Below, one piece after another: positions 85-11,246 of a stretch of DNA of 11,246 bases (position 1 is the first letter of the stretch; each line of letters opens with the position of its first letter). Source of the stretch: a bacterium (lineage in GTDB: Bacteria; Desulfobacterota; DSWW01); contig JAUWSZ010000030.1 in NCBI GenBank assembly GCA_030609865.1, forward strand, positions 1 to 11,246. Reading direction: 5' to 3'. The notes under the pieces were generated by a model, which saw only the letters and a list, made by a program, of their open reading frames with translations, was not told the origin of the DNA and did no database searches. The translations under genes were made by a program, and so were the position numbers.

Positions 85-489
85 ATGGACAAGAAAGCCG
101 AGATTCTCGTCGTGGACGATGATCCGGACATCCAGGACTCCCTGCGGATCATTCTGGAGAGCAACGACTATGCGGTCCGGACCGCAGCCAATGGTCGTGA
201 GGCCATGGAAGAACTCGAGATTCGACTGCCAGACCTGATGATTCTGGACATCATGATGGCCACTGACACCGAGGGCTTCGATCTGGCGTACAAGCTGAGG
301 GATGATCCCGCGTTCAAGAACCTGCCCATCGTGATGCTGACCTCTTTTCTCAACAAGGTCCGCGAGGAAGGACCAGGTAAGTTCGAATACATCCTGGGCG
401 AGCAGTGGCCGGCCCACTGGCTGTTGGAGAAACCCGTGGACAGCAAGAAGCTCCTGGCAAAGATCGAAGGAATCCTGGGCGAAAGCTGA
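85..489 (+). CDS. Single-domain response regulator (CheY-like receiver)
   Basis: This 134-residue protein is a receiver domain and nothing else. The acidic pocket is D11/D12, the phospho-acceptor is D55 (in LMILDIMM), the switch threonine is T86 and the conserved lysine is K116 followed by P117. The T-to-K spacing is 30 residues against about 22 in CheY, so the beta4-alpha4-beta5 region carries an extra loop of about eight residues (around GPGKFEYILGEQWPAHW). There is no DNA-binding, AAA+ or enzymatic output domain, so it should signal by protein contact or as a phosphorelay intermediate. The start is set by AAGGAGGT at 73-80. The kinase gene follows after 20 bases and is the obvious partner. 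Identification as a receiver is firm; its target is unknown. Confidence 0.93.
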   Translation: MDKKAEILVVDDDPDIQDSLRIILESNDYAVRTAANGREAMEELEIRLPDLMILDIMMATDTEGFDLAYKLRDDPAFKNLPIVMLTSFLNKVREEGPGKFEYILGEQWPAHWLLEKPVDSKKLLAKIEGILGES

Positions 490-509
490 GCTCTTCGGAG
501 GTTCACGAG

Positions 510-2483
510 ATGACGATGGACGCAACCTCCATGGAGACAGAAGAGCGATACCTGCCTGAGGATCTCAGCCGGAGAAAGCGGGTCATCCTGCGAGAGTTGA
601 GGGAAAGATCCTTCTGGTTTGTCCGACTGCGATGGTGGGTTCCTCCCTTCATTGTAGCCGGAATCCTGGCGGCCCGGCTGATGGGCGTCGAGTTTGCCAT
701 CAGGCAGGTATTGCTGGTGGCCGCGTTTGTCTTGGCTTACAACATCGTCTTTTTTGCCTTGGGCCGCCGATTCCGTGAGGAGCGCCTCCCAGAGGAACGC
801 CGCTTCCACCGCTTTGCGTACTGGCAGGTGGCCCTGGATTACGCTGCCATGTTCCTCCTCATCCACTTCACGGGCGGGGCGGCGAGCCCTCTGATCTTCT
901 TTTTTATCTTCCACATCATCTTCGCCTCGATCCTTCTTCCCCCGCGTTCGGCGTATGGTTTTTCCGTACTCGTTGTGGTCGGCATGGGACTGATTGCGCT
1001 GACAGAGTATCTCGGCTGGATTCCGCATCATCCTCTCCTGTTCCAGGGCAGATCCACCGATTTGGCTCAACAACCCTTCCACATGGTGGTGGCGTTGGGT
1101 TTTTTCGCCGCCTCGGTGTTCATCACAGCCTTTTCAACCACGGCCATCATGAGGATGCTTCGAAAACGAATCGTGGATCTAGGCGAGCTTTCTGAATCGG
1201 TATCCATCCTCAACAACAGGCTCCAATCCCTGTTCTTGATGATCCAGGCGATCGGGTCGGCCCATCGACTCGAACAGGTGCTGCCCGTTGTAGCCAGCGA
1301 GCTGGGGAGTGTGATGGAGGTGAAAGGCATTTCGGTCAAGCTCCTCAGCGACGACGGAAAATTCCTGAGATTTGCTGCTGCGTACGGCCTCCCCGAGGAG
1401 TTTACCAGTGAGAAAGAGGTGGAGGTGGAAAAGAGCCCCCTCAACCGACGCATCATTGAGGGCGAGCCTTACGTGACCGGCGAACTGACGGCAAGAGAGC
1501 TTTTCCAGTTCGGGGAGGCCCTGGCGGCAGCGCAGATTCGCTCCGTGCTCTTCGTCCCGCTTACCGTCGAGGGCCGAGTGATCGGGACCCTTGGCGCCTA
1601 CTGCGTAGACCCCGACAGGTTCAGCACCGAAGACGTGGACTTCTTCCGGATGGCTGCGGGCTTGGTGGCGATTGCCCTGGAGAATGCGCGAGCCTACGAG
1701 GCGATCGAGCAGTTCGTTCAGGAGAGGTCCTGGTACATGATGCGGGTGACGCACAACCTGCGGGCCCCCCTGGCCGCCATGCTCAGTATGATCGACGTGG
1801 TTCGAGGAGGGTATTTGGGGGAGTTGAACGACGAGCAACGAGAGTACCTCCGCCGGCTGGATCGCCGTTCACGCACCATGCTCTCCATGATCAATGAACT
1901 GATGACCCTGGCGGAGAACCGCAGCGAAAAAGGAGAGGTCGCCCGCGAGCCCGTTGACCCCGCCACGATCGCCAACCGGATTCGACGGACCTTTCAAGAC
2001 GAGGCCAAGGAAAAAGGGGTCGATTTCAAGGTGGTCGTTCCGGAGGACCTGCCGCCGATTCACGCGGATGCGGGGATGATCGAGCAAATGTTCGAGAATC
2101 TCGTTTCCAACGCCATCAAATACACGCCGGCGGAAGGGTGCGTGTGCGTGAACTTCGGGCGGGCGACCCACACGCTGCGTATCGAGGTGAGTGATACAGG
2201 AATTGGAATTTCCCAGGCGGACAGGTCAAAGGTATTCGATGATTTCTTTCGCGCAGAAAACGCCAAGGCGGTGGAGGGAGACGGTACGGGCCTCGGCCTG
2301 GCCATCGTCAAGGAAATCGTCCACAAACATGGCGGCAGGATCATGGTGGAGAGTGAAGAAGGGTTCGGTACCATCTTCGTCGTCCACCTGCCGCTTGTTG
2401 GGCAGGAGGGCGCACATCCTTCGAACCTCGCATCCGACGGCGGGGAGAACAGCCGAGGAGGAGGAGTACGCATAAACACGTAA
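510..2483 (+). CDS. Membrane sensor histidine kinase, RegB-like membrane domain plus GAF
   Basis: This is a 657-residue sensor kinase. About six hydrophobic segments lie at roughly 42-58, 65-84, 107-121, 127-145, 149-168 and 190-212. The loop between the third and fourth carries TGGAASPL (121-128), similar in sequence and place to the GGxxNPF quinone/redox motif of RegB/PrrB kinases, with S for N and L for F. A GAF domain spans about 250-395. The HisKA box contains H415 in THNLRAPL, with N where most kinases have E or D. The catalytic domain has the N box (NLVSNAIKYTP, from 530), G1 (DTGIGIS, 562-568) and G2 (GDGTGLGLAIVK, 590-601). The ATG at 510 is chosen because GGAGGT sits seven bases upstream; the frame stays open further upstream but only inside the preceding gene. 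It probably phosphorylates the adjacent receiver. The signal is inferred to be redox or quinone state, not shown. Confidence 0.92.
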   Translation: MTMDATSMETEERYLPEDLSRRKRVILRELRERSFWFVRLRWWVPPFIVAGILAARLMGVEFAIRQVLLVAAFVLAYNIVFFALGRRFREERLPEERRFHRFAYWQVALDYAAMFLLIHFTGGAASPLIFFFIFHIIFASILLPPRSAYGFSVLVVVGMGLIALTEYLGWIPHHPLLFQGRSTDLAQQPFHMVVALGFFAASVFITAFSTTAIMRMLRKRIVDLGELSESVSILNNRLQSLFLMIQAIGSAHRLEQVLPVVASELGSVMEVKGISVKLLSDDGKFLRFAAAYGLPEEFTSEKEVEVEKSPLNRRIIEGEPYVTGELTARELFQFGEALAAAQIRSVLFVPLTVEGRVIGTLGAYCVDPDRFSTEDVDFFRMAAGLVAIALENARAYEAIEQFVQERSWYMMRVTHNLRAPLAAMLSMIDVVRGGYLGELNDEQREYLRRLDRRSRTMLSMINELMTLAENRSEKGEVAREPVDPATIANRIRRTFQDEAKEKGVDFKVVVPEDLPPIHADAGMIEQMFENLVSNAIKYTPAEGCVCVNFGRATHTLRIEVSDTGIGISQADRSKVFDDFFRAENAKAVEGDGTGLGLAIVKEIVHKHGGRIMVESEEGFGTIFVVHLPLVGQEGAHPSNLASDGGENSRGGGVRINT

Positions 2484-2502: not shown

Positions 2503-2976
2503 ATGACTGAGGAAGAAACACTCGATCTTGCTCCGCTTGACGAGGTGCTCGAAGAGTACCGAGGACAGCGCGGTGCCGTGATTCCCGTCTTGCAGAAGGC
2601 TCAAGAAATCTATGGTTATCTGCCACCGGAGGTCCTCAAGCGGGTCGCGGAAGGGATGCGCGTGCCGATCGGTCAGATTTACGGTGTTGTGACCTTCTTC
2701 TCCCAGTTCTACCTGACCCGACGCGGCCGCCACATTGTTCGTCAGTGCGACGGGACTGCGTGCCACGTACGCGGTGCTGCCAGGATCATCGACAAGATAG
2801 AACAAGAACTCGGCGTCCGAATGGGGGAGACAACCCCGGATTACAAATGCACCTGTGAGCTGGTGTATTGCCTTGGATCCTGTGGTCTCGCACCGGTAGC
2901 GGTGGTGGATGGAAATATAGTGGGCAAGCTGGTGCCGGAGAAGATGGTCTCGATTTTACGTGATCTGGACTCGTGA
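2503..2976 (+). CDS. hoxE: NuoE/HoxE/HndA-like [2Fe-2S] hydrogenase subunit
   Basis: This 157-residue protein is the thioredoxin-fold [2Fe-2S] subunit of NAD(P)-linked hydrogenases and complex I (NuoE, HoxE, HndA, HydC). An N-terminal helical part (about 1-75) includes the family signature IYGVVTFFSQFY (59-70). The cluster ligands are C82 and C87 (CDGTAC) and C123 and C127 (CLGSC). Two further cysteines, C116 and C118, lie just before the second pair. In this family the cluster sits beside the FMN subunit and takes part in electron exchange or tuning at the NADH site. Length is normal for the family. AAAGGAG at 2489-2495 supports the ATG. It starts 19 bases after the kinase stop, so it is probably co-transcribed with it. 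The alternative names hydC and hndA apply equally; the sequence alone does not choose among them. Confidence 0.93.
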   Translation: MTEEETLDLAPLDEVLEEYRGQRGAVIPVLQKAQEIYGYLPPEVLKRVAEGMRVPIGQIYGVVTFFSQFYLTRRGRHIVRQCDGTACHVRGAARIIDKIEQELGVRMGETTPDYKCTCELVYCLGSCGLAPVAVVDGNIVGKLVPEKMVSILRDLDS

Positions 2977-3548
2977 GAGAACTGTCGCTCCACATATTGG
3001 ATGTTTTGCAGAACGCAAGGGAGGCGGGAAGCAGGGTGGTATGGTTGACCATCGATGAGAACATCGCAGAAGACAGGCTGACCATCGAAGTGAAGGACAA
3101 TGGCCCAGGCATGGAAGCAGAAGACATGAGGAAGGTCACGGATCCATTCTTTACCACCCGAACAACCCGGCATGTGGGGCTCGGGCTCCCGCTGTTTGCA
3201 GCGGCCGCCGAGCGTTGCAATGGAGGCCTGAAGGTAGAGGGCTCTCCAGGACAGGGTGTGCGGGTCATGGCCTCCTTTCAGTATGGCCACATCGACCGAG
3301 CCCCCCTGGGTGATATGACCCGCACCCTCTTGTCCTTTCTCATGGGCGAGCCCTCGTGTGATCTCGTGTATGTCCACCATCGCGATGGAGACACGTTTTC
3401 GATGGATACGCGCGTTGTGCGCAGAGAACTCGATTCGATCTCTCTTTCGCACCCGGCGGTCCGGGAATGGCTGGAGGGCTACATTTCGGAGGGTGAGGAA
3501 GGTCTCGAGGCGGTTTCAAGGATCTCACTCAGGAGCAGGGAGGTTTGA
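2973..3548 (+). CDS. Small HATPase-domain protein of hydrogenase operon
   Basis: This 191-residue protein has a GHKL/HATPase ATP-binding domain at about 1-105: an N box (LQNAREAG, 12-19, with N14 and E17), a G1 motif (DNGPGM, 42-47) and a G2-like region (TTRTTRHVGLGLPL, 61-74). There is no HisKA domain and no candidate phospho-histidine box, so it is not an ordinary sensor kinase. The C-terminal 85 residues match nothing I recognise. Proteins of this kind occur beside hydrogenase and NuoE/NuoF-like genes in anaerobes, but I know of no settled function; anti-sigma-like kinase or assembly ATPase are possibilities. It starts with GTG, and its start overlaps the hoxE stop by four bases (GTGA), which implies translational coupling. 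Its stop lies just before the HndB-like gene. Confidence 0.85.
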   Translation: MRELSLHILDVLQNAREAGSRVVWLTIDENIAEDRLTIEVKDNGPGMEAEDMRKVTDPFFTTRTTRHVGLGLPLFAAAAERCNGGLKVEGSPGQGVRVMASFQYGHIDRAPLGDMTRTLLSFLMGEPSCDLVYVHHRDGDTFSMDTRVVRRELDSISLSHPAVREWLEGYISEGEEGLEAVSRISLRSREV

Positions 3549-3550
3549 AA

Positions 3551-3931
3551 ATGCCGAAACTCAAGAGCCTTGAGGATCTGAAGAGTCTCCGCGAACAGGC
3601 CCAGCGGGACATCCAGGTCCGGCTGGATACGGGGACGCGGATCACGGTGGGAATGGGAACCTGTGGCATCGCTGCGGGGGCAAGGGAAACGATGCACGCG
3701 ATCCTGGAAGAGCTGAAGAAGAGGGACATCGAGGCGCATGTGACGACGGTCGGGTGTATCGGCATGTGCTCGCACGAACCCCTCGTGGATATCGAACAGG
3801 CAGGAAGTGCCCGCATCACGTACGGCGGGCTGAAGCCCGACATGGTGTCCCGTCTGATCGAGGAGCACCTCATCAATGGTCGCGTGGTCCATGAATGGGT
3901 CGTGGGTCGGCTGACGAGAGAAAGCGCCTAA
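3551..3931 (+). CDS. hndB: HndB-like [2Fe-2S] ferredoxin-fold protein
   Basis: This 126-residue protein has a thioredoxin-like ferredoxin fold similar to HndB of NADP-reducing hydrogenases and to the N-terminal domain of HndC/HydB. The N-terminal 30 residues are helical and charged; the core follows from GMGTCGIAAGA (35-45). Candidate ligands are C38, C69 and C73 (CIGMC). The fourth position of the usual C-x4-C pair is G43, so cluster binding is incomplete by the standard pattern; I believe this GTCGIAAGA form recurs in the family, but cannot check. ATG 3551 is preferred because GGGAGGT (3538-3544) lies six bases upstream. A TTG at 3545 is in frame but directly abuts that site. Its place between the NuoE-like and NuoF-like genes suggests an accessory redox or structural subunit of the diaphorase module. 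Confidence 0.85.
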   Translation: MPKLKSLEDLKSLREQAQRDIQVRLDTGTRITVGMGTCGIAAGARETMHAILEELKKRDIEAHVTTVGCIGMCSHEPLVDIEQAGSARITYGGLKPDMVSRLIEEHLINGRVVHEWVVGRLTRESA

Positions 3932-3945
3932 AGAGGGAGGGGCCA

Positions 3946-4410
3946 ATGGCTACGGAAGAGATGAAGGGGATCATCGAAAGGGCGATCAAGTTCGAGGAGG
4001 ACTCTTACAAGCTCTACACTTCTGCGAGCCGGCGCGTGAAGGATCCGGGGGCCAGGGCAGGCCTGGCGGAGTTGGCGGGGGAAGAGAAGAAGCACAAGGC
4101 CAAGCTGGAGGGGATGCTCGCAGGGAATCTCGACTGGGCGGTCAGCGTTGGCCGCAGGGCGAATGTGAAAGATCTCGAGATCGGGGGCCCGCTCGAGGCA
4201 AAGCCGATCACCGAACAGTCGTCCCTTCAGGACGTGCTCGCAGTGGCCATCAAACGGGAGGAGGCAACAGGCGCCTTCTATTCGCAGATGGCTGCGCTGG
4301 TGGATCCGGGTCCGGCGAAGGATCTCTTTGAGATGCTCGCGAAGGAAGAGGCCCGGCACAAGCAGTACGTAGAGAGCATTTACGAAGAGGATGTGTACAA
4401 GGAATTCTAA
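3946..4410 (+). CDS. Ferritin-like diiron protein (rubrerythrin-type, no rubredoxin domain)
   Basis: This 154-residue, strongly helical protein is a ferritin-like four-helix bundle. Two similar halves can be seen. The first has IKFEEDSYKLY (15-25) and EEKKH; the second has IKREEATGAFY and EEARH. That is the E...ExxH double pattern that binds two irons in rubrerythrins and related proteins. No CxxC rubredoxin domain is present, so it is shorter than classical rubrerythrin and would need an external electron donor. Family members reduce peroxide or handle O2 or iron. The ATG at 3946 has AGGGAGG at 3934-3940; an upstream in-frame start would overlap the preceding gene. Placed inside the hydrogenase operon, it could protect the oxygen-sensitive enzyme, but this is inference from position. 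Confidence 0.88.
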   Translation: MATEEMKGIIERAIKFEEDSYKLYTSASRRVKDPGARAGLAELAGEEKKHKAKLEGMLAGNLDWAVSVGRRANVKDLEIGGPLEAKPITEQSSLQDVLAVAIKREEATGAFYSQMAALVDPGPAKDLFEMLAKEEARHKQYVESIYEEDVYKEF

Positions 4411-4466: not shown

Positions 4467-7400
4467 ATGGCAGAACCCTTGTATAGGGCCAACGTGCTGA
4501 TTTGCGGGGGTACCGGATGTACGGCCTCGGGCTCAGAGAGCGTGCTCAAAGTCATGAAGGACGAGATCATCCATCGCGGCCTGGACAAAGAGGTCCGTGT
4601 GGTTCAGACGGGCTGCCGCGGTTTCTGTGCCATGGGTCCGGTGATCATGATCTACCCCGAAGGGATCTTCTACTGCCAGGTGCAGCCTGAAGATGTGCCC
4701 CTGTTGGTCGAGGAAACCCTGGTGAAAGGGCGGGTCGTGGAACGTCTCGTCTACAAGGAGCCTGCAGAGCACAAGGCCATCGCGCACTATAGCGAGATAC
4801 CCTTCTACAAAAAGCAGCTGCGCATCGCCCTGGCAAATTGCGGCATGATCGATCCTGAGAAAATCGATGAATACATCGCCCACGACGGCTATGCGGCCCT
4901 GTCCCAGGCCATCACGGGGATGACGCCGGACGAGGTCATCGCCCAGGTGAAGGACTCGGGCCTCCGCGGGCGTGGTGGAGCAGGTTTTCCGACCGGCCTC
5001 AAATGGGAGTTTACGCGCCGTACCCCGGCTGAGCCCAAGTATGTGATCTGCAATGCCGACGAGGGGGACCCTGGCGCGTTCATGGACCGGAGCATCATCG
5101 AGGGGGATCCGCACAGCGTGATCGAGGGCATGGCAATCGCGGCCTATGGCATCGGTGCCCGGGACGGGTACGTCTATTGCCGTGCCGAATACCCGCTGGC
5201 CATCAAACGCCTTGAGGTGGCTATTGAGCAGGCAGAGTCATTGGGATTGCTCGGGGAGAATATCCTGGGGAGCGACTTCACGTTCCATCTCCATATCAAG
5301 GAGGGGGCAGGGGCTTTCGTATGCGGGGAAGAAACGGCGCTGATGGCCTCGATCGAGGGAAGGCGGGGTGAGCCTCGCCCCCGTCCCCCCTTTCCCGCTG
5401 TTTCGGGTCTCTGGGGCAAGCCCACGAACATCAACAACGTGAAAAGCTATGCGAATGTGCCCCGGATCATCCTGAAGGGATCCGAATGGTTCGCCGGGAT
5501 CGGCACGGCTCGCAGCCCGGGGACGGCGATCTTTGCCATCACCGGAAAGATAAACAACACGGGTCTTGTTGAGGTGCCCATGGGGATCACCCTGGGCGAG
5601 ATCGTTTTTGACATCGGGGGCGGAATCCCCGGCGGGAGGAAGTTCAAGGCCGTCCAGACCGGTGGGCCCCTGGGAGGCTGCCTCTCTGCCGAGCATCTGA
5701 ACGTGAAGGTGGATTTCGATTCCCTTCGGGATGTAGGGGCCGTGATGGGTTCGGGTGGGATGATCGTGGTGGACGAAGACACATGCATGGTCGAGTTCGC
5801 CAAGTTCTTCCTGACCTTTGCCACAGCGGAGAGCTGCGGGAAGTGTATCCCCTGCCGTGCCGGCGGAAAGCGCATGCTCGAGATCCTGACGCGGATCTGT
5901 GAGGGGAATGGCCGGATGGAGGATCTCGACCAAATCCGGAAGATTGCCGCAGGCATGGAATCAGGCGCCCTGTGTGCGCTGGGCCAGCTCACGCCTGGGC
6001 CGGTGATGTCAGCCCTTCGCTATTTCGAGGACGAATTCATCGCGCACATCGAGGATAAACGATGCGAGGCCGGCTCCTGCCAGGCGCTGGCTCCGGCCCG
6101 GTGCCTGAATGCCTGTCCGGCAGGTGTGGATGTTCCCAACTATGTGAGCCTTGTGGCAGAGGGGAGATATGGGGAGGCCCTGGAGGTGCATCGCGAGCGA
6201 AACCCCTTTGCCATGATCTGTGGCCGCGTCTGCCCGGCCTTCTGTGAGAGTCGATGTCGCCGGGGCGACATCGATGAGCCGGTCGGAATCCGCGCGATCA
6301 AGCGATTCATGGCGGACCACGAGGCAGGACAACCTTGGACGCCTGACCGATTCGGGGAGCCGAAACAGGAAAAGGTGGCCGTGGTGGGTTCCGGCCCGGC
6401 AGGCCTGACTTCGGCCCTGCGCCTTGCCCAGATGGGATACCCGGTGACCGTGTTCGAGGCCCTGCCCGTACCGGGAGGGATGATGGCGGTGGGCATCCCG
6501 GAATATCGACTCCCGCGTGATGTCCTGAATCAGGAGATCGACAACATCCGGCGGGCAGGTGTGGAGATTGTCTGCAACAAGGCACTGGGACGCGACTTTA
6601 CCGTGGACGATCTCATGAACGGTCAGGGGTACAAGTCGATCGTCCTGGCCATCGGCGCCCACAAGGGCATGCGGCTCGGCATCCCCGGGGAGGACAGGGG
6701 AGGGGTCTACGAGGGCATCGACTTCCTGCGCGAAGTGGCACTCGGCAAGGTGCCGGACATGACGGGCAAACGTGTCGCAGTGGTGGGAGGGGGCAACGTG
6801 GCGATCGACGCTGCGCGTACCGCCTTGCGTCTGGGCGCCTCCGAGGTACACGTGATCTACCGCCGCACTCGCCAGGACATGCCTGCCTACGGAGACGAGA
6901 TCGAAGCCGCCGAGCAAGAGGGGGTCATCTACCACTTCCTCTCCAACCCGGTGCGGGTGCTGGGCCCTGCCAAGGTTACTGCGATCGAGGTACAGCACCA
7001 GGAATTGGGGGAGTTCGACCGGAGCGGCCGCCGCAGGCCGGTTCCGGTGGAAGGGTCCGAGTTCCCTCTGGCCGTGGATCTTCTCATCCCGGCCATCGGG
7101 CAGCAACCCGACAGCGCATGCGCGGACGGAGCGGGGATTGAGATCAACCGAAACGGCACCTTGAAGGCAAGCAAGGAGCTGGCTACCTCGAGACCGGGTG
7201 TGTTTGCTGCAGGGGATGCCGTGTCCGGCCCGGCTTCTGTGGTCGAGGCCGTGGCACACGGAAACCGGGTGGCCAGGGTTGTGGATGCCTACCTGCGTAC
7301 GGGGGAGATCGAGAGTTTTGTTTCTCGACTGGATGTTCACCTCCCAGCCCTCACCTGTGTCATGGAGGATTACGGTGAGACCGCCCGGATCCGGCCCGTG

Positions 7401-7571
7401 TTTCTGGATGCGGAAAAGCGCAGGGCCAACTTCCAGGAAGTGGAATTGCCCCAAGAGGAGGGGGTGATCCGTGAGGAGTGCAAGCGTTGCCTGCGATGCG
7501 ATCTTGAATGGCAGGAGAGCCGTGAGCGGGCCGGGAAGGAACAAGCAACGAGGGCGGTGGCAGGGGGTTGA
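4467..7571 (+). CDS. hoxF: HoxF/HydB/HndC-like diaphorase fused to GltD/NfnB-like NADPH module
   Basis: This 1034-residue fusion has two halves. The first (about 1-530) is a NuoF/HoxF/HndC-type NADH dehydrogenase subunit: a thioredoxin-like [2Fe-2S] domain (C13, C18, C50, C54), the FMN loop GLRGRGGAGFPTGLKW (165-180), the nucleotide region GEETALMASIEG (287-298), an SLBB-like section and an N3-type [4Fe-4S] site (C457, C460, C463, C503). The second (about 531-1011) resembles GltD, NfnB and dihydropyrimidine dehydrogenase: two cysteine groups (C533, C538, C546, C550; C585, C589, C593, C597), an FAD motif (VVGSGPAG, 639-646), an NAD(P) motif (VVGGGNVAIDAA, 772-783) with YRRTRQDMPA (798-807) typical of NADPH binding, and the FAD-closing GVFAAGDA (911-918). 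A short tail has C1005, C1008 and C1011. The C-terminal two-cluster ferredoxin domain common in HydB is absent. AGGAGG at 4453-4458 sets ATG 4467. Confidence 0.93.
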   Translation: MAEPLYRANVLICGGTGCTASGSESVLKVMKDEIIHRGLDKEVRVVQTGCRGFCAMGPVIMIYPEGIFYCQVQPEDVPLLVEETLVKGRVVERLVYKEPAEHKAIAHYSEIPFYKKQLRIALANCGMIDPEKIDEYIAHDGYAALSQAITGMTPDEVIAQVKDSGLRGRGGAGFPTGLKWEFTRRTPAEPKYVICNADEGDPGAFMDRSIIEGDPHSVIEGMAIAAYGIGARDGYVYCRAEYPLAIKRLEVAIEQAESLGLLGENILGSDFTFHLHIKEGAGAFVCGEETALMASIEGRRGEPRPRPPFPAVSGLWGKPTNINNVKSYANVPRIILKGSEWFAGIGTARSPGTAIFAITGKINNTGLVEVPMGITLGEIVFDIGGGIPGGRKFKAVQTGGPLGGCLSAEHLNVKVDFDSLRDVGAVMGSGGMIVVDEDTCMVEFAKFFLTFATAESCGKCIPCRAGGKRMLEILTRICEGNGRMEDLDQIRKIAAGMESGALCALGQLTPGPVMSALRYFEDEFIAHIEDKRCEAGSCQALAPARCLNACPAGVDVPNYVSLVAEGRYGEALEVHRERNPFAMICGRVCPAFCESRCRRGDIDEPVGIRAIKRFMADHEAGQPWTPDRFGEPKQEKVAVVGSGPAGLTSALRLAQMGYPVTVFEALPVPGGMMAVGIPEYRLPRDVLNQEIDNIRRAGVEIVCNKALGRDFTVDDLMNGQGYKSIVLAIGAHKGMRLGIPGEDRGGVYEGIDFLREVALGKVPDMTGKRVAVVGGGNVAIDAARTALRLGASEVHVIYRRTRQDMPAYGDEIEAAEQEGVIYHFLSNPVRVLGPAKVTAIEVQHQELGEFDRSGRRRPVPVEGSEFPLAVDLLIPAIGQQPDSACADGAGIEINRNGTLKASKELATSRPGVFAAGDAVSGPASVVEAVAHGNRVARVVDAYLRTGEIESFVSRLDVHLPALTCVMEDYGETARIRPVFLDAEKRRANFQEVELPQEEGVIREECKRCLRCDLEWQESRERAGKEQATRAVAGG

Positions 7572-7654: not shown

Positions 7655-9439
7655 ATGGCTTCGATAAACCTGACGATCAACGAGCAGAAGGTCACAGCCC
7701 GCGCCGGCCAGACAATCCTGGAGGCGGCCCGGGAGGCGGGCATTGACATCCCAACCCTTTGTCACCACCCCGCACTGAAGCCGATCGGTGCATGCCGCAT
7801 GTGTCTGGTGGAAGTGTCCGGGCAAAGGGCCCTTCAGCCGGCCTGTACGTTCCCGGTGGCGGAAGGCCTGGAGGTGCAGACCGAATCCCCGAAGGTGATC
7901 GAGGCGAGGAAGTTCGTGCTCGAGCTGATCTTCTCGGAAAGAAACCACTTCTGCATGTATTGCGAGATGAGCGGCGATTGCGAACTCCAGGCCCTGGCCT
8001 ATCGATACGGGCTCGACCACATGATCTACCCGACATACACAAAGGGGTTTCCTGTGGACGCAACGCCCAAGTACTTCCTTCTTGACCACAATCGTTGCGT
8101 CCTGTGCAGGCGGTGCGTGCGGGCATGCAGTGAAGTGGTGGCCCATCACACGCTGGACATGCGCCAGCGGGGGGCGGACACGATGATTCACGCGGACATG
8201 AACCTGCCGATCGGAGAGTCCTCTTGCATCTCCTGCGGCACGTGCCTGGACGTATGCCCAACCGGTGCGCTGATCGACAAACGCAGCGCCTTTATGGGGC
8301 GGGAGGTGGAAACGGAGATTGTCAAGAGCGTTTGCAGCCAGTGCAGCCTGGGTTGCGGGATCGAGATCGTAACGCGGGGGGGCAATGTGTTGCGGATCCA
8401 GGGGGACTGGGATGCCCGGGTCAACGGTGGGGCCCTCTGTGAGATGGGTCGCTTCGAGCCCCTCTATGACAAACGGCCAAGGATCCTGGGCCCCCTTGTC
8501 CGAGACAGGGGCAAGCAAGAAGAGGTGGACTGGGACCGAGCCCTTCAAGTCGCAGCCGGTCGTATCAGTGAGACCCTTCCCGACCGGCTGGGTGTCCTCG
8601 CCTCCACCCATGCCACCAACGAGGCCTTGTACCTGGTGGGCAAACTGTTCCGCGGGGAACTCCAAACCACGCAGATCGGGCTGCTCAACGCCTCTGCGCC
8701 GGTCCTTGCCTCGGGATCAGAGGGCTCTCTGGCAGACGTGGCGAAGAGTGACTGCATCCTCGTGGTCGGTGCAGACCCGGCCAAAGAGCAGCCGGTTGCC
8801 TCGTTCATCGTCAAGCGGGGTGTGGACACCGGTGCGCAGCTCATCCTCGTCGACGGACAGGAGACGGCTCTGGCCCCATTCGCACACATGAACGTCACTT
8901 CGTCGAATATCGACCAGGCCGTTGAGACGGCGCAACGTTCCGAATCTCCGACCGTCGTCTATGGTGCGGGCGTAACGGACGAGGTCGGAAATTCGCTGGG
9001 AAAGCTGAACGGGAAGGCTCTCTTCGTGGCGCTTCAGCCCGGGGTGAACACCCGTGCGGCAAAGAAGGTTGGATTGGAAAACGATCTCGATCCTTCAGGG
9101 CTCGAGGTGTTGTACGTTCTGGCGGGCGAAGAGGAGTGGGACAGCGAGGAGACCATGAAGCGAGTCCGTGAAGGGACCTTTCTGATCGTACAAGCCAGCT
9201 ATGCCTCGCCCCTGACCGAAAGGGCGGACGTGGTGATGCCCATGGCTATCTGGTCAGAGAGGTCGGGAACGCTGACGAACACCGAAGGCCTCGTGCAGCA
9301 AGCCCACAAGGCCACGGAACCCTTGGGAGAAGCAAGACCGGACTGGGAGATCCTCTCCCTGCTCGGAGAAAAACTCGGGAAGAGATTGGGTGCCTCCCTG
9401 GACGAGATCGCGGAGAGGGCAACCCAACAGCTCCAGTGA
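7655..9439 (+). CDS. hoxU: HoxU/NuoG-like iron-sulfur subunit with truncated molybdopterin-type tail
   Basis: This 594-residue electron-transfer subunit starts like HoxU and the front of NuoG or HydA. It has a plant-type [2Fe-2S] domain (C36, C47, C50, C64), a His-Cys [4Fe-4S] site (H98, C100, C103, C109; the HxC spacing as in HoxU) and two [4Fe-4S] ferredoxin motifs (C148, C151, C154, C158 and C191, C194, C197, C201). HoxU proteins normally end near 240 residues. This one continues with a further [4Fe-4S] site (C227, C230, C234, C262) and about 330 residues resembling the molybdopterin-oxidoreductase domain of NuoG and formate dehydrogenases. It lacks a full catalytic and cofactor-capping domain and is shorter than NuoG (about 900). 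It likely wires HoxYH to the flavin subunit. AGGGAGGAG at 7641-7649 supports ATG 7655. HydA-like is an equally fair label. Confidence 0.9.
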   Translation: MASINLTINEQKVTARAGQTILEAAREAGIDIPTLCHHPALKPIGACRMCLVEVSGQRALQPACTFPVAEGLEVQTESPKVIEARKFVLELIFSERNHFCMYCEMSGDCELQALAYRYGLDHMIYPTYTKGFPVDATPKYFLLDHNRCVLCRRCVRACSEVVAHHTLDMRQRGADTMIHADMNLPIGESSCISCGTCLDVCPTGALIDKRSAFMGREVETEIVKSVCSQCSLGCGIEIVTRGGNVLRIQGDWDARVNGGALCEMGRFEPLYDKRPRILGPLVRDRGKQEEVDWDRALQVAAGRISETLPDRLGVLASTHATNEALYLVGKLFRGELQTTQIGLLNASAPVLASGSEGSLADVAKSDCILVVGADPAKEQPVASFIVKRGVDTGAQLILVDGQETALAPFAHMNVTSSNIDQAVETAQRSESPTVVYGAGVTDEVGNSLGKLNGKALFVALQPGVNTRAAKKVGLENDLDPSGLEVLYVLAGEEEWDSEETMKRVREGTFLIVQASYASPLTERADVVMPMAIWSERSGTLTNTEGLVQQAHKATEPLGEARPDWEILSLLGEKLGKRLGASLDEIAERATQQLQ

Positions 9440-9453
9440 AAGGAGATTCCGTC

Positions 9454-9999
9454 ATGGCCAAGGTAACCGTCGCCACGGACTGGCTGGCCGCCTGTGCAGG
9501 ATGTCACATGTCCTTCCTGGACATCGATGAACGGCTCGTTCCATTGCTCGAATTGGTGGAGTTTACTTCGAGCCCGGTCACAGACCTCAAGCATCCTCCC
9601 GAGGAGGGTGTTACCGTGGGCATCCTGACGGGCGCCATCAGCAACACGCACAATGTAGAAGTGGCCAAAAGGATGCGCGAGAGGTGCAAGATCCTGATCG
9701 CACTCGGCGACTGCGCTACCTTTGGGGGTATCGTGGCGACGCGCAATCTGGTCGGTACGCAGGCAGCCCTGAGGCGGGCCTACATCGAGTCGGAGAGCAC
9801 CGTGGACGGGCTGATCCCCAACTCCCCGGAACTGGGAGTCCCGCTCGACCATGTGACGGGAGTGAGCGACGTGGTAAAGGTAGATCTCTTTATCCCGGGC
9901 TGTCCGCCGAGTGCCGATGCCATCTACTTCGCCTTGTCGGAGCTGCTCGCCGGGCATGTGCCCGTCGTCCTGCCCGCCGAATATTTTCGGTACGATTAG
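9454..9999 (+). CDS. hoxY: [NiFe] hydrogenase small subunit HoxY
   Basis: This 181-residue protein is the small subunit of a cytosolic group 3 [NiFe] hydrogenase. The proximal [4Fe-4S] ligands are visible: C14 and C17 (CAGCH), C87 (GDCATFGG) and C150 (PGCPPSAD). No medial or distal cluster domain and no twin-arginine signal peptide are present, which fits a soluble HoxY-type subunit and not a membrane-bound uptake enzyme. It passes electrons between the Ni-Fe site in HoxH and the HoxU clusters. ATG 9454 is chosen with AGGAG at 9441-9445 eight bases upstream. An in-frame GTG at 9436 overlaps the hoxU stop and would place the Shine-Dalgarno site inside the gene. It is followed after 12 bases by hoxH. 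In the bifurcating HydABCSL nomenclature it would be HydS. Confidence 0.95.
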   Translation: MAKVTVATDWLAACAGCHMSFLDIDERLVPLLELVEFTSSPVTDLKHPPEEGVTVGILTGAISNTHNVEVAKRMRERCKILIALGDCATFGGIVATRNLVGTQAALRRAYIESESTVDGLIPNSPELGVPLDHVTGVSDVVKVDLFIPGCPPSADAIYFALSELLAGHVPVVLPAEYFRYD

Positions 10000-10011: not shown

Positions 10012-11246
10012 ATGGAAGTCCGCAAAATCACGATCGAGCCGGTTACGAGGATCGAGGGGCATGCACGCGTTACCATCCACCTGAACGAGGAGGGGGGCGT
10101 CGAGCAGACCTTCTTCCATGTCGATGAATTCCGGGGCCTTGAGAAATTCTGCGAAGGCCGGCCCTACTTCGAGATGCCGCAGATCACGCAGCGCATCTGC
10201 GGCATCTGTCCGGTGAGCCATCACCTGGCATCGGCAAAGGCCTGCGACGAGATTGCGGGCGTCGAGCCCCCGCGGCCGGCAAAGCTGCTGCGTGAATTGA
10301 TGCATATGGGGCAGGTCGTCCAATCCAACGCGATGCACTTCTTCCACCTGGCGGCGCCGGACCTGATCTTCGGATTTGACGCCGATCCGGCCACGAGGAA
10401 CATTTTCGGCATCATCAAGGCGAACCCGGAGCTGGCGCTCAAGGCGGTCAACCTGAGACGGTACGGGCAGCAGATCATCGAGAGGTTGGGCTCGAAGCGC
10501 ATACATCCCTACTTCACCGTGCCCGGCGGGGTGAACGCGCCGCTTGACCCCAAAGACCGTGATGCCATTGCCGAGGAACGAGAGACCATGGTGGGTTACG
10601 CACAGGACGCGATCGGCATCGCCAAACAATGGCTCGAGGAAAACAGGGATCTGGCAGAGACGTTCGCAGCCTTCCCTTCGAATTACATGGGATTGGTGGA
10701 CGAAGAAGGGGGCCTGCAATTCTACGACGGAGAAATCCGCGTCCGGGACGCCGAGGGCGGCATGTTGGCGCAATTCAGGCCCACCGACTACCTGGAATAT
10801 GTGGCAGAGCACGTCGAGCCCTGGTCTTTCTTGAAGTTCCCTTACTACAAGAAGCAGGGATGGCCGGAAGGGCCCTATCGCGTGGGCCCGCTCGGACGGC
10901 TGAACGCGGTGGACAAGATCGGTACACCCCTGGCACAGGAGGAGTTCAAGCTTTTCAAGCAGATTCGCAACGGCAAGCCCGTCGAGGGGTCCCTCTACTA
11001 TCACTACACACGGGTCATCGAGGTCCTGTATGCGATCGAGCGTATCGGGCAGCTTCTTGATGATCCCGATATCCTGTCAAAGGATGTACGGTCCTACGGT
11101 ACGGTACAGCTCAGCGGACACGGAGTGGGCGTGATCGAGGCTCCGAGGGGTACGCTCTTCCACGACTACTCCACGGATCCGGACGGCCTGCTGACCCGTG
11201 TAAACCTGATTGTGGCCACCGGTAACAACAACTGGGCCATGAACAA
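10012..11246 (+). CDS. hoxH: [NiFe] hydrogenase large subunit HoxH (3' end outside window)
   Basis: The reading frame is open from ATG 10012 to the window end, giving 411 complete codons of a protein that is usually about 420-490 residues. The start has the family signature EPVTRIEGHARV (9-20) and the N-terminal nickel-binding motif RICGICPVSHH (61-71, ligands C63 and C66). The C-terminal DPCxxC motif and the maturation-protease tail lie beyond the window, so completeness of the active site cannot be judged here. This subunit holds the Ni-Fe(CN)2CO centre where H2 is cleaved or formed. AGAGGAG (9998-10004) overlaps the hoxY stop and sits eight bases (10004-10011 region) before the ATG. In HydABCSL naming it is HydL. 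Maturation genes (hyp, protease) are not in view. Confidence 0.95.
   Translation, partial: MEVRKITIEPVTRIEGHARVTIHLNEEGGVEQTFFHVDEFRGLEKFCEGRPYFEMPQITQRICGICPVSHHLASAKACDEIAGVEPPRPAKLLRELMHMGQVVQSNAMHFFHLAAPDLIFGFDADPATRNIFGIIKANPELALKAVNLRRYGQQIIERLGSKRIHPYFTVPGGVNAPLDPKDRDAIAEERETMVGYAQDAIGIAKQWLEENRDLAETFAAFPSNYMGLVDEEGGLQFYDGEIRVRDAEGGMLAQFRPTDYLEYVAEHVEPWSFLKFPYYKKQGWPEGPYRVGPLGRLNAVDKIGTPLAQEEFKLFKQIRNGKPVEGSLYYHYTRVIEVLYAIERIGQLLDDPDILSKDVRSYGTVQLSGHGVGVIEAPRGTLFHDYSTDPDGLLTRVNLIVATGNNNWAMN

Follow-up and report, generated by a model that had tools for sequence, protein, structure and literature searches.

We analysed an 11,246-nucleotide stretch of contig JAUWSZ010000030.1 (assembly GCA_030609865.1; Desulfobacterota, DSWW01), hereafter the window, in which a [NiFe]-hydrogenase operon carries a hydB-gltD fusion gene. 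The genes for HydC, a HATPase, a hydD-like protein, a rubrerythrin-like protein, the fusion, HydA, HydS and HydL all run in the same direction (Table 1). Judged by its predicted products, the operon is of the NiFe-HydABCSL type, with HydA, HydB, HydC, HydS and HydL accompanied by hisK and hydD in one operon, the hydD match being weak. The fusion joins a NuoF/BfuB-like half, with a site for flavin mononucleotide (FMN) and nicotinamide adenine dinucleotide (NAD), to a GltD half with motifs for flavin adenine dinucleotide (FAD) and NAD phosphate (NADP).

Table 1. Genes of the window and predicted domains of the fusion protein
Feature	Coordinates	Strand	Evidence
Response regulator and GAF/HisKA sensor kinase genes	85-2483	+	Same direction, 19 bases before hydC
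hydC (NuoE-like, BfuC), thioredoxin-like [2Fe-2S] subunit	2503..2976	+	PF01257, 161.6 bits
HATPase gene, in the position of A. mobile hisK	2973..3548	+	PF02518; 4-base overlap with hydC
hydD-like gene, short 2Fe-2S ferredoxin-like protein	3545..3931	+	PF01257, 23.7 bits (cut-off 24.8); NF041612 weak
Rubrerythrin/ferritin-like gene between hydD and hydB	3946..4410	+	PF02915, 50.5 bits
hydB-gltD fusion (NuoF/BfuB plus StnC-type GltD)	4467..7571	+	1034 residues; open reading frame, Pfam, homologues, AlphaFold2 model
Fusion: N-terminal thioredoxin-like domain, B5 [2Fe-2S] ligands C13, C18, C50, C54	4467..4796	+	PF01257 at residues 3-83
Fusion: FMN/NADH-binding domain with bifurcating-type DPGAFMD and GAGAFVCGEE	4947..5465	+	PF01512, 157.8 bits
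Fusion: four-helix bundle, B1 [4Fe-4S] C457, C460, C463, C503; B2 site C440, C478, H527, C533, C538	5784..6080	+	PF10589, 100.2 bits
Fusion: Fer4_20 two-cluster unit replacing the B3/B4 domain	6057..6326	+	PF14691, 78.6 bits; C546, C550, C589, C593, C597, K612
Fusion: FAD and NADPH Rossmann domains	6372..7262	+	PF07992, 135 bits; GSGPAG, GGGNVAID, YRRTRQDMPA (6858-6887)
Fusion: C-terminal segment EKRRANFQEVEL...RCLRC (C1008, C1011), circularly permuted ligand segment	7413..7502	+	Alignments to 9n5u_A, 9bov_A, 8oh5_C, 4ylf_B, 5jca_L
hydA (NuoG-like, BfuA)	7655..9439	+	594 residues; Pfam including PF13510, PF12838; best PDB match 7t2r_A, 331 bits
hydS, NiFe small subunit	9436..9999	+	PF01058; 5 cysteines in total, enough for one [4Fe-4S]
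hydL, NiFe large subunit, truncated by the window end	10012..11246	+	PF00374; best PDB match 7t2r_D, 507 bits

The fusion is encoded by a single uninterrupted open reading frame, with AGGAGGG directly 5' of its ATG. Its Pfam domains follow in the order 2Fe-2S_thioredx (residues 3-83), Complex1_51K (161-333), NADH_4Fe-4S (444-527), Fer4_20 (531-620) and Pyr_redox_2 (636-932); NCBIfam models for NuoF (502.7 bits, residues 130-528) and for a GltD-like family (474.8 bits, residues 512-1011) also match, both below their curated cut-offs. Homologues were taken from the 120 matches listed out of at least 8000 candidates scored, the window's own entry among the 120. They measure 979-1054 residues, cover 94-100% of the query and, the window itself aside, share 69-98% identity with it; the named ones bear mixed labels (Anaerolineae, Chloroflexi, Actinobacteria, 'bacterium', Hyphomicrobiales, Desulfobacterales and Syntrophales). 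Because these listed homologues match it near full length, the fusion is an established gene and no artefact, which bears out a prior reading of the letters alone (the sequence-only reading) that had placed a NuoF-type and a GltD-like half in one unbroken frame. An assembly error, a frameshift or a chance join, any of which would have undone that claim, is excluded by the lengths and coverage of the homologues and by the placement of the window in the same clade by both halves. The best match in the Protein Data Bank (PDB) is HydB of Acetomicrobium mobile (7t2r_B, 861 bits). An AlphaFold2 model built from 99 sequences (predicted local distance difference test, pLDDT, 91; predicted template modelling score, pTM, 0.86) superposes at 1.6 Å each on this HydB (residues 115-540) and on StnC; a first model from 17 close sequences (pLDDT 61.7, pTM 0.46) was discarded. 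The VIA-align rows for 9n5v_B, 9mqx_B and 9bp5_B extend to model residues 601-609, a hint of overlap between Fer4_20 and the ferredoxin domain of those chains; as the rows give end residues only, nothing was drawn from them.

Residue conservation was counted over 64 fusions of at least 800 residues each, namely that of the window, 50 from a genome scan and 13 from further genomes. In A. mobile HydB the B2 [2Fe-2S] cluster is reported to be held by Cys438, Cys476, Cys531, Cys536 and His525, with Cys476 semi-conserved (PMC8880783), and an ungapped alignment with an offset of +2 carries these ligands over to C440, C478, C533, C538 and H527 of the window. The B1 ligands are present in all 64 fusions, as are C440, H527, C533 and C538 of the B2 site; position 478 varies (T, 37; C, 13; S, 11; V, 2; A, 1). 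In 17 close rows, the B5 columns for C50 and C54 hold cysteine throughout and those for C13 and C18 do so in 16, with a gap in the one left. As marks of bifurcating beta subunits, Losey et al. 2020 list an Ala/Glu and a Met near NADH, a Phe near FMN and GGPSG in the SLBB region. The fusion of the window has A204 and M206, a pair kept in 64/64 fusions, and F284, kept in 63/64; its SLBB-region motif is taken up below. The SLBB domain itself scores 22.2 bits with PF10531 (cut-off 27), yet we counted it as present, given the superposition of this part of the model on 7t2r_B.

Beyond the B2 site the fusion departs from known HydB proteins. The HydB-type two-cluster ferredoxin domain (B3/B4) is missing, as the sequence-only reading had it, and a two-cluster Fer4_20/GltD unit stands in its place, its first cysteine (C546) lying 8 residues past C538, the last B2 cysteine; in HydB of Acetomicrobium hydrogeniformans (L049) the first ferredoxin-domain cysteine lies 13 residues past the equivalent of C538. 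The FAD motif, the second nucleotide motif and the YRRTRQDMPA segment of the same reading were all found, the YRR of the NADPH motif in 63/64 fusions; the GltD part thus retains its motifs for FAD and NADPH. Its pair of four-cysteine groups did not survive intact. The first of them (C533, C538, C546 and C550) was set aside as a single cluster and probably represents two half-sites: C533 and C538 align with B2 ligands, and we read them as such because the C-terminal RCLRC supplies the missing GltD ligands, as in StnC. The segment R..NF.EV...RCLQC, which in NfnL precedes the GltD unit, stands at the C terminus of the fusion (residues 983-1012), so that C1008 and C1011 would be supplied from the far end; StnC shares this C-terminal placement, as do the A chains of NfnABC from Caldicellulosiruptor (9bov) and Thermococcus sibiricus (9n5u). 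Both cysteines are found in 61/64 fusions, the other 3 having gaps there. The predicted ligand set of the GltD half thus comprises seven cysteines (C546, C550, C589, C593, C597, C1008 and C1011) with K612 as the eighth ligand; C585 is cysteine in only 52/64 fusions, as expected of a non-ligand. By analogy with the ligands of dihydropyrimidine dehydrogenase, the distal cluster would be held by C1008, C1011, C546 and C597 and the proximal one by C550, C589, C593 and K612, a putative split.

The lysine (codon 6300-6302) aligns with K170 of StnC, which is reported to coordinate the FAD-proximal cluster, with Glu at that place in NfnB (PMC10482914). Of the 64 fusions, 53 share the Lys at position 612, 10 have His there and 1 has Arg; none has Glu. 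Given Lys instead of Glu at the FAD-proximal cluster and a C-terminal RCLxC, both features of StnC, whose FAD has been judged non-bifurcating (PMC10482914), the GltD module is likelier to be a linear NADPH wire than to hold an Nfn-type bifurcating FAD.

The remaining genes fit a hydrogenase of this kind. HydC has candidate ligands for the C1 cluster (C82, C87, C123 and C127), and HydA has cysteines sufficient for clusters A1-A5 together with a molybdopterin-like remnant. HydL has RICGICPVSH within the window, and a 475-residue, 99% identical homologue (P0121) has both NiFe motifs, with DPCLSCSTH near its end. Among the seven relatives in the window's clade, the HATPase gene is present in 6/7 and the hydD-like gene precedes the fusion in 7/7. 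The rubrerythrin-like gene had no tblastn match at E 1e-5 in any locus fetched; rubrerythrin-linked Bfu enzymes (Rub-Bfu) have already been proposed in print. The sensor kinase and response regulator upstream of hydC are possibly the regulator of the operon. A pairing of the diaphorase with HoxYH had been singled out as deserving attention: the NiFe pairing stands, but the partners are not those of a classical HoxUYH, being HydS and HydL with a long HydA, nearest among solved structures to A. mobile NiFe-HydABCSL.

To place the fusion among its relatives, 80 loci were kept from at least 589 stretches in the genome scan. Fifty of these carry a one-frame fusion of at least 800 residues, in some cases truncated at a contig end; 6 further fusions, cut or broken, were excluded from the residue counts. 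H-cluster motifs of [FeFe]-hydrogenases lie near 19 of the 50 fusions and NiFe large-subunit motifs near 5 (L003, L028, L029, L045 and L051), the HydL beside the fusion being a distant one (~30% identity) in L028 and L029. A protein with a Glu_synthase domain adjoins the fusion in four tested loci of the 50 (L020, L027, L035 and L037) and a molybdopterin-type protein in one tested locus (L010); the remaining fusions were cut by contig ends or not classified. The GltB-like neighbours lie at 13763-15406 in L020, 13704-15386 in L027, 4526-6136 in L035 and 6983-8758 in L037, and a NuoF-GltD protein next to such a neighbour is possibly a bifurcation-linked glutamate synthase.

Relatives of HydL were found in 59/301 Chloroflexota genomes (1e-110), 14/297 Desulfobacterota and 2/199 Acidobacteriota (both 1e-140), each phylum being named after the labelled loci that served as search centres; a second Desulfobacterota search from another centre gave 13/247, largely the same genomes. 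The upstream region was fetched for 15 of the 59 Chloroflexota genomes, along with a short contig of G001. Among the resulting 31 genomes (15 + 14 + 2), the diaphorase region holds the fusion in 14 (5 Chloroflexota, 8 Desulfobacterota and 1 Acidobacteriota) and another form of HydB in 11, namely a conventional HydB of 593-594 residues in 9 Chloroflexota, plus L136 and L158; no diaphorase gene was seen in 6 of the 31. The HydB of L136 (5517-7694, 726 residues), of bifurcating type and in a NiFe locus, has an unrelated-looking C-terminal stretch with no ferredoxin domain or GltD in view. The Chloroflexota NiFe-HydABCSL loci with conventional HydB (L121-L124, L126-L130) have GGPMG in the SLBB region, and L126 and L127 also have AA instead of AM, off the published bifurcation criteria. 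A second NuoE/NuoF pair lies beside the first in L120 (4523-6227, reverse strand), L147 (8720-10755, forward strand), L121-L124, L126, L127, L006, L013, L016, L017 and L050; its NuoF is of the non-bifurcating type (EPGTFKD) and adjoins a bifurcating-type HydB or a fusion, standing upstream of the fusion in L006.

The window falls in a clade of eight members in the tree of either half, with an approximate likelihood-ratio support (SH-aLRT) of 100 for the HydB half (quick method, 106 rows) and an ultrafast bootstrap (UFBoot)/SH-aLRT support of 100/99 for the GltD half (62 rows). NiFe genes are in view for 6 of the 8, the other 2 being short contigs. In the HydB tree this clade lies next to HydBs of the conventional form from Acetomicrobium hydrogeniformans, a Synergistaceae bacterium and Halanaerobium (support 91). 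Rows that combine NiFe genes and a fusion are scattered over several separated clades, and the starred branches require no fewer than 9 label changes for this group in the tree of the HydB half and no fewer than 6 in that of the GltD half, numbers that are somewhat inflated as rows with the partner out of view were labelled 'other'; on account of this scatter the NiFe-fusion pairing has probably been made or lost repeatedly. Thus, the pairing of fusion and NiFe hydrogenase that had been flagged as noteworthy is real, but it is less unusual than had been supposed: the fusion is widespread, often with [FeFe] motifs nearby, and the NiFe pairing occurs in several phyla.

The subunit set, the ligand residues and the swap of the ferredoxin domain for a StnC-type GltD can be read from the genes, and the folds are as predicted by the models. 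In this predicted complex two nucleotide sites and two flavins are joined to one H2 site, as the sequence-only reading had supposed, and the FMN half has bifurcating-type residues. For the HydBC and StnAB cores it has been proposed that NAD+ is reduced at FMN and that C1 and B2 relay low-potential electrons to B3/B4 and ferredoxin (PMC8880783, PMC10482914). The fusion retains the core ligands, and the outlet is exchanged, at an unchanged point of the chain, for a module akin to one known as a linear NADPH wire; read most simply, this makes NADP+ the low-potential acceptor. Electrons from H2 would then pass from the NiFe site of HydL through HydS and the clusters of HydA to B1 and FMN, where the FMN with C1, B1, B2 and B5 would bifurcate them as proposed for HydABC. 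One electron pair would go to NAD+ at FMN, and the other would travel via C1/B2 to the distal cluster of GltD, the Lys-liganded proximal cluster, FAD and NADP+, for a net, reversible reaction of 2 H2 + NAD+ + NADP+ = NADH + NADPH + 2 H+. That H2 electrons are bifurcated at FMN to NAD+ and NADP+, with GltD in place of ferredoxin as the low-potential outlet, is the account we favour, tentatively and at somewhat less than an even chance. The fuller proposal built on it is more tentative again: the window would encode a ferredoxin-independent bifurcating [NiFe]-hydrogenase with a Bfu FMN core and a StnC-type GltD as low-potential outlet, and the same swap would serve [FeFe]-hydrogenases, making up a whole Bfu branch whose low-potential arm would run on NADP(H) and which would be tuned to an H2 pressure near 100 Pa.

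Several observations weigh against NADP+-linked bifurcation at FMN. According to Schut et al. 2022, the six core clusters are all invariant among members that bifurcate; the fusion lacks B3/B4, its Pfam matches including no Fer4 family except Fer4_20 (PF14691). All four B5 cysteines are present in the window and in 41/64 fusions in total. As a control, we examined 13 second NuoF copies whose diagnostic sites (EPGTFKD; T/K, Tyr) are those of the non-bifurcating type, with copies shorter than 500 residues, such as the second NuoF of L120, excluded from the counts; C440, H527, C533 and C538 are kept in 8 of them and missing in 5, so the B2 ligands alone are no mark of bifurcation. A bifurcating-type HydB of 549 residues in a NiFe locus (L158, 9800-11446) ends right after B2 with no ferredoxin domain or GltD in view. 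Finally, and mildly, the window has GGPLG for the GGPSG of Losey et al. This motif is found in 8/64 fusions, all of the window's clade, the other 56 having GGPSG, and in 119 of the 120 homologues listed; because the motif reads GGPMG in nine NiFe clusters of Chloroflexota whose HydB is conventional, the change appears to track NiFe lineages and not the fusion. The loss of B3/B4, the altered GGPSG, the control copies that retain B2 ligands and the L158 HydB without any outlet domain also favour an enzyme of dual specificity that does not bifurcate, reducing NAD+ at FMN and NADP+ at FAD independently or acting as a reversible H2/NADH/NADPH equaliser without energetic coupling. Against such an enzyme stand the A/M pair, the Phe and the four B2 residues, kept by the fusions at the frequencies given above, the divergence of the control copies at the diagnostic sites, the 5 of them without B2 ligands, and a HydB half that stayed bifurcating-type through many partner changes; we consider it unlikely, though a serious contender.

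Ferredoxin could alternatively have remained the low-potential partner, docked on the Fer4_20/GltD clusters, with NADP(H) as an extra port, in a hydrogenase-transhydrogenase hybrid linking H2, NADH, NADPH and ferredoxin. Such docking is conceivable, and to that extent tells against an NADP+ outlet, in that the homologous clusters of Nfn pass electrons to ferredoxin; moreover, the window retains the ligands of the Bfu core, and Stn joins NADPH, NADH and ferredoxin using the same modules. We nevertheless doubt it, although it ranks beside the dual-specificity enzyme as a main rival, as the ferredoxin-docking domain itself is absent, the GltD of StnC is a linear path, and the ferredoxin of Stn has been placed at the C-terminal domain of StnB, the very part lacking in the fusion. 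The likeness of the GltD half to StnC, down to the ligand K612, recalls instead the direction of flow in Stn, where StnC feeds the core: NADP(H) would be a mid-potential port, NADPH or H2 feeding the FMN core and GltD donating into it. We rate this as improbable, since the GltD of Stn sits on the NuoG-like input subunit, whereas here it follows B2 on HydB and the HydA input is taken by HydSL. Bifurcation at the FAD of GltD as in Nfn, which the sequence-only reading had entertained, fares worst and is highly improbable. The fold is homologous to NfnB, and R681, the equivalent of NfnB R201 and StnC R239, is present in 64/64 fusions; however, Lys, His or Arg replaces the NfnB Glu at the proximal cluster in all 64, the same Arg in StnC is reported to make no contact with FAD N5, the StnC FAD being the one judged non-bifurcating, and no protein of the NfnA/NfnS type was found by Pfam among the 10 window proteins scanned.

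Returning to NADP+ as the low-potential acceptor at an FMN-bifurcating core, its interest lies in the energetics. In the proposal of Schut et al. 2022, every HydABC-type (Bfu) enzyme works with NAD(H), ferredoxin and a third substrate; the approximate physiological potentials given there are -280 mV for NAD, -380 mV for NADP and -500 mV for ferredoxin. If NADP+ can replace ferredoxin, Bfu bifurcation would be possible without the need of a partner near -500 mV. The computed equilibrium H2 pressure is ~15,000 Pa for NAD with ferredoxin, ~145 Pa for NAD with NADP and ~3 Pa for NAD alone; the NAD/NADP pair would be well matched to bacteria that turn over H2 in syntrophy or in sediments, and the cluster is carried by Chloroflexota, Desulfobacterota and Acidobacteriota. 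The fusion would also offer a test of which clusters make an FMN core bifurcate, as nature has exchanged B3/B4 in it and left B1, B2, B5 and C1 in place. No description of a NuoF-GltD fusion with a NiFe hydrogenase was found in the accessible literature, PMC7325909 (Actinobacteria, serpentinizing system) and subscription papers lying outside that search. The survey of Schut et al. 2022 assigns the soluble NiFe-Bfu to Synergistetes and Halorhabdus and a membrane-bound Mbh-Bfu to Dehalococcoides, and has the NADP module sit on BfuA in Nfn-Bfu; its domain-based sampling probably passed the fusion by, given that the ferredoxin-type domain is missing in our Pfam scan.

Among known systems, the Hox hydrogenases of group 3d (HoxFUYH, 5xf9) resemble the window in pairing the two NiFe subunits, small and large, with a diaphorase of the NuoF type; however, these have a short HoxU-type subunit where the window has a HydA of 594 residues, and HoxF is described as being without clusters B2-B5. 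Hydrogenase genes beside GltD domains also occur in the [FeFe] group A2/A3 clusters of HydDB, which include a protein resembling glutamate synthase (PMC5037454), whereas the hydrogenase of the window is NiFe. By the HydDB rule for [FeFe] group A, a downstream NuoF protein denotes A3 and a GltD without NuoF denotes A2 (PMC5037454); as any NuoF-containing neighbour is filed as A3, the fusion has no class of its own there. The Hyt/formate dehydrogenase complex of Clostridium autoethanogenum (PMC6288185) offers a precedent for a bifurcating hydrogenase that uses NADP+; unlike the window's enzyme, Hyt is [FeFe], is reported to contain FMN but no FAD, and pairs NADP+ with ferredoxin instead of NAD+ with NADP+. 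NfnAB (NfnL/NfnB; 4ylf, 5jca) has the GltD fold, two [4Fe-4S] clusters and the FAD and NADPH motifs in common with the fusion, but differs in its Glu at the proximal cluster, its N-terminal RCLxC, its NfnA/NfnS partner and its bifurcating FAD. The fusion has the Lys at the FAD-proximal cluster in common with StnC; the StnABC complex of Sporomusa ovata (Nfn-Bfu type 1; 8oh5/8oh9), however, carries its GltD on the NuoG-like subunit, retains the ferredoxin domain in StnB and lacks a hydrogenase (PMC10482914, PMC7483475), whereas in the window GltD is fused to the NuoF-like subunit and HydA is without a GltD domain in Pfam.

Set against the Bfu definition, the fusion has the Nuo51 (PF01512) and NADH_4Fe-4S (PF10589) domains of BfuB, and the B1, B2 and B5 ligand residues in the fusion are accompanied by those of C1 in hydC. 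BfuC (IPR002023) is recognised via PF01257, and the 2Fe-2S and 4Fe-4S domains of BfuA (IPR001041, IPR017896) via PF13510, PF12838 and others. Of the four InterPro domains by which Schut et al. 2022 define BfuB, the ferredoxin-type domain IPR017896 (B3/B4) is lacking, as judged by Pfam rather than InterPro. The closest counterpart is NiFe-HydABCSL of A. mobile (7t2r/7t30), whose operon holds hisK and hydD, neither of them part of the enzyme (PMC8880783). The window matches it in subunits A, B, C, S and L, in hisK and hydD, and in the ligands of B1, B2 (four Cys and His) and B5. It differs in a shorter HydA (594 vs 692 residues), in the inserted rubrerythrin-like gene and in GGPLG vs GGPSG; the two-cluster ferredoxin domain of A. 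mobile HydB (B3/B4, the putative ferredoxin site) is replaced in the fusion by Fer4_20 and the FAD/NADPH domains.

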